Assembly: GCA_029204225.1 (NCBI GenBank)
Contig: CM055094.1
Coordinates: 18,996,065 to 19,060,064, forward strand
DNA length: 64,000 bases
Source of the DNA: Diphasiastrum complanatum
Taxonomy: Eukaryota; Streptophyta; Lycopodiopsida; Lycopodiales; Lycopodiaceae
Direction: 5' to 3'
Positions 22,182 through 22,640 of the stretch are shown here, one piece after another. The notes under the pieces were generated by a model. That model was not told the origin of the DNA. It saw only the letters and a list, made by a program, of their open reading frames with translations, and made no database searches. Made by a program: the position numbers and the translations under genes. Each line of letters opens with the position of its first letter. The first letter of the stretch is position 1.

Positions 22182-22640
22182 ATGGCTCGGACGAAGCAAA
22201 CTGCTAGGCTTACCCATTTTGTTCAACCGTCCCGTCCCCAGACATCTGAACCCATACGTCCGCAAAGACGCGGAAGACCTCGCCGTCCATGGTTGAGGGA
22301 CATCAGGGCCTTGCAGAGGTACACCAAACTTGTGATCCTGAAAGCAGCCTTGTACCGGGATGTGAGGGAGGTTACACGAGATATGACCACGCATCTGCCC
22401 TATGCAGTGAGGTGGAATATCGCTGCATTGGAGGCCCTCCATATTGTATACGAGGACTTCCAGACAAAATTGTTTGAGGATTCGATGTTGTGTCCCATTC
22501 ATGGAAAGAGGGTGACACTGATGCCCAAGGACATGCTTCTTGTCATGAGGTTTCGAAACACCTATGACAGTGGTATGCCACATGGCAAATCATGCAGGCT
22601 TGAGGGTTGCCATGTGGCAAGCCATGTAGGCCTACCATAA
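22182..22640 (+). CDS. CENH3-like divergent histone H3, intronless, with AT-hook
   Basis: A 152-codon frame. The N-terminus MARTKQTAR matches histone H3. Residues 29-35 (RRGRPRR) form an AT-hook, which binds the minor groove of AT-rich DNA. Residues 38-126 align with the H3 histone fold. They carry features of the centromeric variant CENH3 and not of canonical H3: RW before helix 2 (77-78), a loop 1 one residue longer, LFEDSMLC (97-104) and KRVTLM (109-114). The lysine-rich H3 tail after residue 9 is absent. The frame is unbroken through the fold, but the last 20 or so residues (from about 132) and the stop come from the satellite that follows. Plant CENH3 genes are usually intron-rich, so this looks like a captured retrocopy. 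Good start context (TCAATGGC). Whether it is expressed or loads into nucleosomes cannot be seen. Confidence 0.72.
   Translation: MARTKQTARLTHFVQPSRPQTSEPIRPQRRGRPRRPWLRDIRALQRYTKLVILKAALYRDVREVTRDMTTHLPYAVRWNIAALEALHIVYEDFQTKLFEDSMLCPIHGKRVTLMPKDMLLVMRFRNTYDSGMPHGKSCRLEGCHVASHVGLP

Follow-up and report, generated by a model that had tools for sequence, protein, structure and literature searches.

A CENH3-like histone frame in a Diphasiastrum complanatum tandem array as the probable relic of a DNA transposon family with a predicted histone-protease gene

The window, that is, the whole stretch of 64,000 nucleotides of Diphasiastrum complanatum DNA that was analysed, is a tandem array of a unit of about 24.8 kb with internal duplications, and it holds on its forward strand a single open frame of 152 codons at 22182-22640 (Table 1). 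The frame matches the Pfam Histone family with an E value of 3e-18 (66.7 bits; cut-off 26.4), its best matches in the PDB are H3 variants (72.5 bits), and in both alignments an H3-type histone fold is present. The marks of a centromeric fold named in the original prediction are all found in the ORF: the residues RW before helix 2, a loop 1 longer than that of H3 by four residues, LFEDSMLC and KRVTLM. The canonical H3-like tail start ARTKQTAR is likewise in place, together with an MPKD motif. Fold prediction from the single sequence of the window protein reached no confidence (pLDDT 41). The last 22 codons, from residue 131 onwards, are satellite read-through, and the natural C-terminus of the histone is therefore absent from the window ORF. 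The ORF had been described as sitting directly on a satellite array; satellite does adjoin it, with the correction that satellite already forms the end of the ORF itself.

The tail had also been said to gain an AT-hook. The AT-hook-like stretch RRGRPRR is present, but its RGRP aligns with RYRP of H3 at the start of alpha-N and therefore arose by substitution at that place, with no module added. Twenty loci of the host genome were compared (L009-L028; 19 dispersed copies and one array copy, L028), and the RGRP core is kept in 15 of them, with CGRP, HGRP or CRRP in the remaining five; two further array copies (L003 and L004) have RGRS. The residues RP are invariant across 15 compared proteins, including a copy of a distant subfamily (C7) that keeps RGRP at 40% identity, and RGRP is found in one of the two C7 histones and is missing from the second. 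The C7 histones have shorter loops than the window type, and one of them has RF. The RGRP core with its basic flanks fits the definition of an AT-hook, which makes binding to the minor groove of AT-rich DNA a putative property of the protein.

Table 1. Features of the window on the histone, promoter, satellite and gene 1 sequences (strand "." where none applies).
Feature	Position	Strand	Basis
Third promoter copy, no histone behind it	11923..12006	+	copy comparison
Third 3' satellite joint (like 22572-22713), histone-less	12346..12486	+	copy comparison
Relic exon of gene 1 (candidate transposase-like gene)	19316..19804	+	match to element gene 1
Same gene 1 exon, second relic	20751..21224	+	match to element gene 1
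Common promoter and leader, TATATAAG at 21847-21854	21792..22181	+	copy comparison
Residues 1-130 of the ORF, CENH3-like histone	22182..22571	+	Pfam, PDB alignment, trees
ARTKQTAR (H3-type tail start)	22185-22208	+	ORF translation
RRGRPRR, AT-hook-like, aligned with H3 RYRP	22266-22286	+	PDB alignment, locus comparison
HLPYAVRW, lengthened loop 1 and RW	22392-22415	+	alignment
LFEDSMLC	22470-22493	+	ORF translation
KRVTLM	22506-22523	+	ORF translation
Satellite read-through closing the ORF	22572..22640	+	cassette comparison
209-bp tandem satellite 3' of the ORF	22755..23176	.	repeat analysis
(GA)n run closing the shared cassette	23379..23530	.	repeat analysis
One period of the tandem macro-unit, about 24.8 kb	28562..53409	.	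28562-34823 repeats at 53409-59691
Relic of a gene 1 exon, second unit	43438..43926	+	match to element gene 1
Gene 1 next-exon relic	44187..44339	+	match to element gene 1
Gene 1 next-exon relic, duplicate	44896..45048	+	match to element gene 1
Second histone copy, frameshifted by a 2-nt deletion	45908..46361	+	copy alignment

The TATA box that had been assigned to the ORF was found as TATATAAG. The 21-mer bearing it occurs exactly at 11975, 21842 and 45568, with no occurrence in shuffled sequences, and the promoter and satellite joint of the histone cassette recur in the third, histone-less one (11923-12486). Upstream of the histone the two window copies diverge by 5.6%, against 4.9% within it and 3.0% downstream of it. 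Changes between the two histones are spread 6/6/7 over the codon positions, and with 11 nonsynonymous and seven synonymous differences neutrality is not rejected (Fisher p 0.14); for this pair, the comparison proposed for the copies is thus consistent with neutrality. Six of the 15 transitions in the ORF fall at CpG sites that are intact in the first copy (22182-22640) and lost in the second (45908-46361), with none in the reverse direction, a one-way loss as expected of methylated, silenced repeats. Taken alone, without the genome data, the window would suggest a decaying pseudogene.

Several other elements were observed in the window. CACGTG (G-box) motifs number 34 in all and cluster as 11 in 583 bp (11424-12006) and eight in 897 bp (45011-45907); dispersed loci elsewhere in the genome have up to 15 in 900 bp. 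A reverse-transcriptase-like stretch at 12913-13308 (+), reading GTPMGFSYSP...RYIDDICFIN, possibly belongs to a retroelement of Penelope-like or another type (RVT_1 E 0.016, short of the cut-off). Copia-type pieces lie at 673-1866 (+; RVT_2) and 6979-7530 (-; Pol_BBD and gag_pre-integrs), the latter with near-copies at 37329-37880 (-) and 63193-63744 (-). Two ORFs of 398 and 360 codons (27500-28696 and 52079-53161, both on the minus strand) contain within them a direct repeat about 670 bp long, and a Pfam search of them gave no credible match.

A search of the 1.74-Gb host assembly with the window ORF returned 7,753 first-look candidates, a loose screen and no copy count; 150 of them were scored and all 150 match, so further copies do exist genome-wide. 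At least 93 of these hits lie in macro-arrays on C3 and C14, with in-frame stops in 39 of the 93 and none in the other 54 (frameshifts uncounted), and at least 57 are dispersed, at 78-86% identity, with stops in 23 of the 57. A second search used an approximate sequence of the Arabidopsis CENH3 fold as the query; among the 150 hits scored of 5,528 candidates the first 13 have 59% identity and the next 137 have 47-56%. L029, the one locus read among the 13, is a canonical host H3, separate from the transposon histones. Host CENH3 was not found in this one search with the Arabidopsis fold, which gave H3 first and then transposon copies. The two lists combined hold at least 172 distinct dispersed places, on each of C1-C23 (some of them on small contigs and possibly duplicates of placed ones), and with the 93 in arrays at least 265 listed places overall. 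Within the 900 bp before the histone ATG, three or more CACGTG boxes are found in 18 of the 20 compared loci (0-15 per locus) and TATATAAG in 14.

The dispersed copies carry a longer gene than the window does. Four of the 19 dispersed loci, the longest ones, have ORFs of 345-373 codons that open with the histone and continue through a basic linker into a further domain. Splice signals follow 3' of the long ORF, with three additional exons that read NKHWSVHVISMKVDST..., SSQQDNAFSCGWYSIWNVK... and ...HQYRHEMLEILLS, joined by prediction from these signals and not from cDNA. By tblastn, 18 of the 19 dispersed loci have all four parts (the linker/protease part and the three later exons), whereas the window and the array copy L028 gave none of them. 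The motif NKHWS occurs in all six exon-2 translations printed; L009 reads NW in place of HW. A D, the candidate catalytic Asp, stands at the KVDS/KLDS position in five of six exon-2 translations of the C8-type copies; in the C7 copy it is not clear. The catalytic Cys is kept in four of seven printed exon-3 translations (C8-type) and lost in L010, L024 and L025, and several copies have therefore decayed. The C7 subfamily (L039 and L040) has the same exon series, with GHWSLNLISIK and SPQQNDSFNCGWY, and shares HWS and QQND.F.CGWY with the C8-type copies.

The protease halves of the two subfamilies match each other (BLASTP, 77 bits). The C7 copy matches Pfam Peptidase_C48 (PF02902) at 1.8e-4 and 21.9 bits, above the cut-off of 20.7, and the C8-type copy at 0.007 and 16.7 bits, below it; a PDB search with the protease half gave no credible match. 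Both subfamilies contain the catalytic His, Gln and Cys pattern of the Ulp1/SENP C48 family (HWS, QQ, CG). The predicted exon layout is that of Ulp1/SENP-type (C48) cysteine proteases, with a C48 match that is weak and, in one subfamily, below cut-off, and the best explanation is that the dispersed gene encodes a predicted protein of CENH3/H3-like histone, basic linker and Ulp1/SENP-type protease in at least four exons. A recent CENH3 retrocopy was considered and rejected: the histone part is a single exon, but intron-like breaks lie further down the dispersed gene, which is therefore no simple processed copy.

The histone gene belongs to a larger element, of which the dispersed copies share more than 8 kb. 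Gene 1 lies upstream of the histone gene on the same strand, and two further groups of ORFs (gene 2 and gene 4) lie on the opposite strand. A Pfam search of gene 1, given in pieces, matched no family and returned no Tnp2-type or hAT domain, and a PDB search with one piece gave no credible match; because no Pfam family matched, the designation of gene 1 as transposase-like rests on layout and serves as a lead only. The pieces presumably resemble abundant animal repeat proteins, which is again a lead. A viral origin was discarded as a candidate, P0001 and the gene 1 alignment having no relative in viral_contigs.

The element ends in terminal inverted repeats (CATTAGAGGAG...), whose CATTA we take to resemble the termini of CACTA elements. 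The right end is sharp in 11 of the 20 loci, and in one C7 element the inverted termini are identical at 27 of 27 bases. At the right end of the C7 element in L040 (near position 3670) the outermost bases are replaced by a long GA run, which resembles the GA runs closing the window cassettes. The two terminal motifs occur genome-wide at 298 and 2,446 sites, against none in reversed controls. Of the first 100 motif places listed, 22 are within 15 kb of any of the 172 dispersed histone hits, and 21 of these 22 face inward and one outward (p 1.1e-5); several of the 22 are segmental duplicates, and the p value is therefore overstated. A 3-bp target-site repeat was found in only one of four end pairs. 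The inverted termini at both ends are those expected of a DNA transposon with terminal inverted repeats, and with histone copies dispersed on C1-C23 and amplified in arrays they bear out the proposal of a mobile, amplified element.

As to descent, overall identity does not separate H3 from CENH3 for the window histone, which is 42-47% identical to the H3 rows and 41-44% identical to the plant CENH3 rows. Diagnostic residues agree with the CENH3-like character originally claimed: in a small panel with approximate plant CENH3 rows, the window fold has ten states found only in plant CENH3 against five found only in H3, or 16 against two when all CENH3 rows are counted. The phylogeny spoke for the claim in part. 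With the window histone alone, it groups with plant CENH3 (85/96; approximate CENH3 rows), but a grouping of the transposon histone with H3 is not rejected (p-AU 0.394). When seven transposon histones are entered, they come out as a single clade (88/95) and the grouping with H3 falls to p-AU 0.033, while a grouping with plant CENH3 is unsupported (57/13; long branches, approximate CENH3 rows). A CENH3-like origin of the transposon histones is accordingly likely but not proven.

We conclude that this is probably a family of multi-gene DNA transposons bounded by terminal inverted repeats, in which a CENH3-like histone is predicted to be fused to a protease, and that the window preserves a relic of it; the anatomy of this explanation we hold with high confidence. 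The window ORF is best read as what is left of the dispersed transposon gene after truncation and tandem amplification. The suggested influence on where centromeric chromatin forms, or competition with host CENH3, was not supported for the window copy: it is truncated and without the protease part, its sister copy is frameshifted, and it lies in a macro-array of which 39 of the 93 listed copies have in-frame stops.

What the full-length protein might do can be proposed only tentatively from its sequence. The histone half would pair with H4, enter or touch nucleosomes and so dock the protein on chromatin, while the AT-hook-like RGRP and the KKRK stretches would help it bind DNA and reach the nucleus. 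Nearby proteins of silencing or of the centromere and kinetochore would then lose SUMO, or a similar tag, to the protease half, and removal of the tag would counter silencing of the element or aid its insertion. The CACGTG boxes before the histone ATG could act like the non-coding motifs recognised by VANC proteins. A bolder and rather doubtful version would make the fusion of a centromeric-type histone and a SUMO protease a core gene of a plant transposon lineage that builds or edits nucleosomes, on its own copies or at centromeres; if it is true, host chromatin is being marked with a histone variant by a selfish element, which may also push CENH3 to evolve. Should the protein be functional, host chromatin receives both a histone variant and a SUMO protease from such an element, a direct test case for escape from silencing and for genetic conflict over CENH3.

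A variant that overlaps with this explanation, and that we consider unlikely, is that the histone steers the transposition complex towards chromatin containing CENH3 or H3, where new copies would then insert. The CENH3-like residue states would suit such a role, as would the crowding of termini around 65 Mb and 95-100 Mb of C1 among the first 100 places listed; the element is nevertheless dispersed over all of C1-C23. The dense run at C1:65.0-66.7 Mb has a near-identical 25-bp left flank at all eight sites checked (22-25 of 25 bases alike), and it therefore arose by local amplification and not by repeated insertion. It is another macro-array from one insertion, grown as on C3, and centromere-targeted insertion is ruled out for that cluster.

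Passive cargo, in which a host CENH3 or H3 was captured once and copied without use (transduplication), has a fungal precedent in the accessible part of one report (PMC3538342), and the stops in listed array and dispersed hits fit it, as does the window pair, which is consistent with neutrality. The comparison between subfamilies makes it improbable. For the histone fold of C8-type against C7-type copies, pS is 0.67-0.81 (saturated) and pN 0.29-0.38, and amino-acid identity is about 50%; sequences drifting neutrally until their synonymous sites were saturated would not have stayed so alike, which argues that the histone fold is under purifying selection between the subfamilies, at least as judged from sequence divergence. 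The fusion and the protease motifs are moreover kept in both. Among the other genes the same comparison gives pN of 0.19-0.30 for gene 1 pieces, 0.31 for gene 4 and 0.45 for gene 2, which is less conserved than the rest. Recent top array copies have a dN/dS of 0.28 in the fold and 0.50 in the tail, in a sample biased to histone similarity; upstream sequence read as codons gives 0.67-0.83, other coding pieces 0.39-0.69 and an intron-like stretch 0.90. Choosing copies for their likeness to the histone depresses these shallow histone values, and we therefore rely on the deep comparison.

A functional host gene at the window ORF, derived from CENH3, multiplied on C3 and expressed from its own TATA and G-box promoter, is very improbable. 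That promoter, the 54 of 93 listed array hits free of in-frame stops (frameshifts uncounted) and the fold value of 0.28 from the biased sample are what it could draw on, against the satellite in place of the natural C-terminus, the frameshift of the sister copy and the even divergence of the window copies over codon positions. An ordinary canonical H3 pseudogene near repeats is hardly credible, since the comparable identities, the H3-type tail start with MPKD and the unrejected H3 grouping of the window histone alone are outweighed by the seven-histone tree, the diagnostic states, the canonical and separate host H3 (L029) and the conservation of the fusion across the genome.

Compared with known systems, the transposon histones share RW, DSM, TLM, LLIP.A.F and the longer loop 1 with plant CENH3 (approximate sequences), and differ from it in being multi-copy, mobile and protease-fused, with an unlike C-terminus; in one subfamily loop 1 is even longer than in plant CENH3. 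Published examples exist both of transposons that captured an Ulp1 domain and of an H3-like gene in one fungal transposon. In the accessible part of the open-licence PubMed Central literature, neither a histone-protease fusion nor a CENH3-like transposon core gene was found, and the word histone does not occur in a 2026 review of gene capture in plants (PMC13317346). CACTA-ULP elements are DNA transposons with a ULP1-like region (PMC2528002); they differ in their Tnp2-type transposase domain, for which Pfam gave no match in the gene 1 pieces here, and the accessible text mentions no histone. Kaonashi/KIU and VANC of plant non-TIR MULEs have an Ulp1 protease domain in an accessory gene that belongs to an anti-silencing family; VANC proteins relieve related elements of silencing, and what they recognise are short motifs in the non-coding sequence of those elements (PMC13317346, accessible part). 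The Kaonashi/KIU MULEs are, like the element described here, plant DNA transposons carrying an Ulp1 protease domain, but they are non-TIR Mutator elements for which that part of the source mentions no histone.

The nearest printed case, as far as the accessible text of its report goes, is a hAT element of Pyrenophora tritici-repentis, a DNA transposon with inverted termini and an amplified H3-like gene, H3L, in 26 copies, which is described as neither H3 nor CenH3 (PMC3538342). That system is fungal, has a hAT transposase and 26 genes, and is presented in the same text without mention of a protease fusion, whereas the family in D. complanatum has at least 265 listed places, gene 1 pieces in which Pfam found no hAT domain, a predicted C48 fusion and deep subfamilies.
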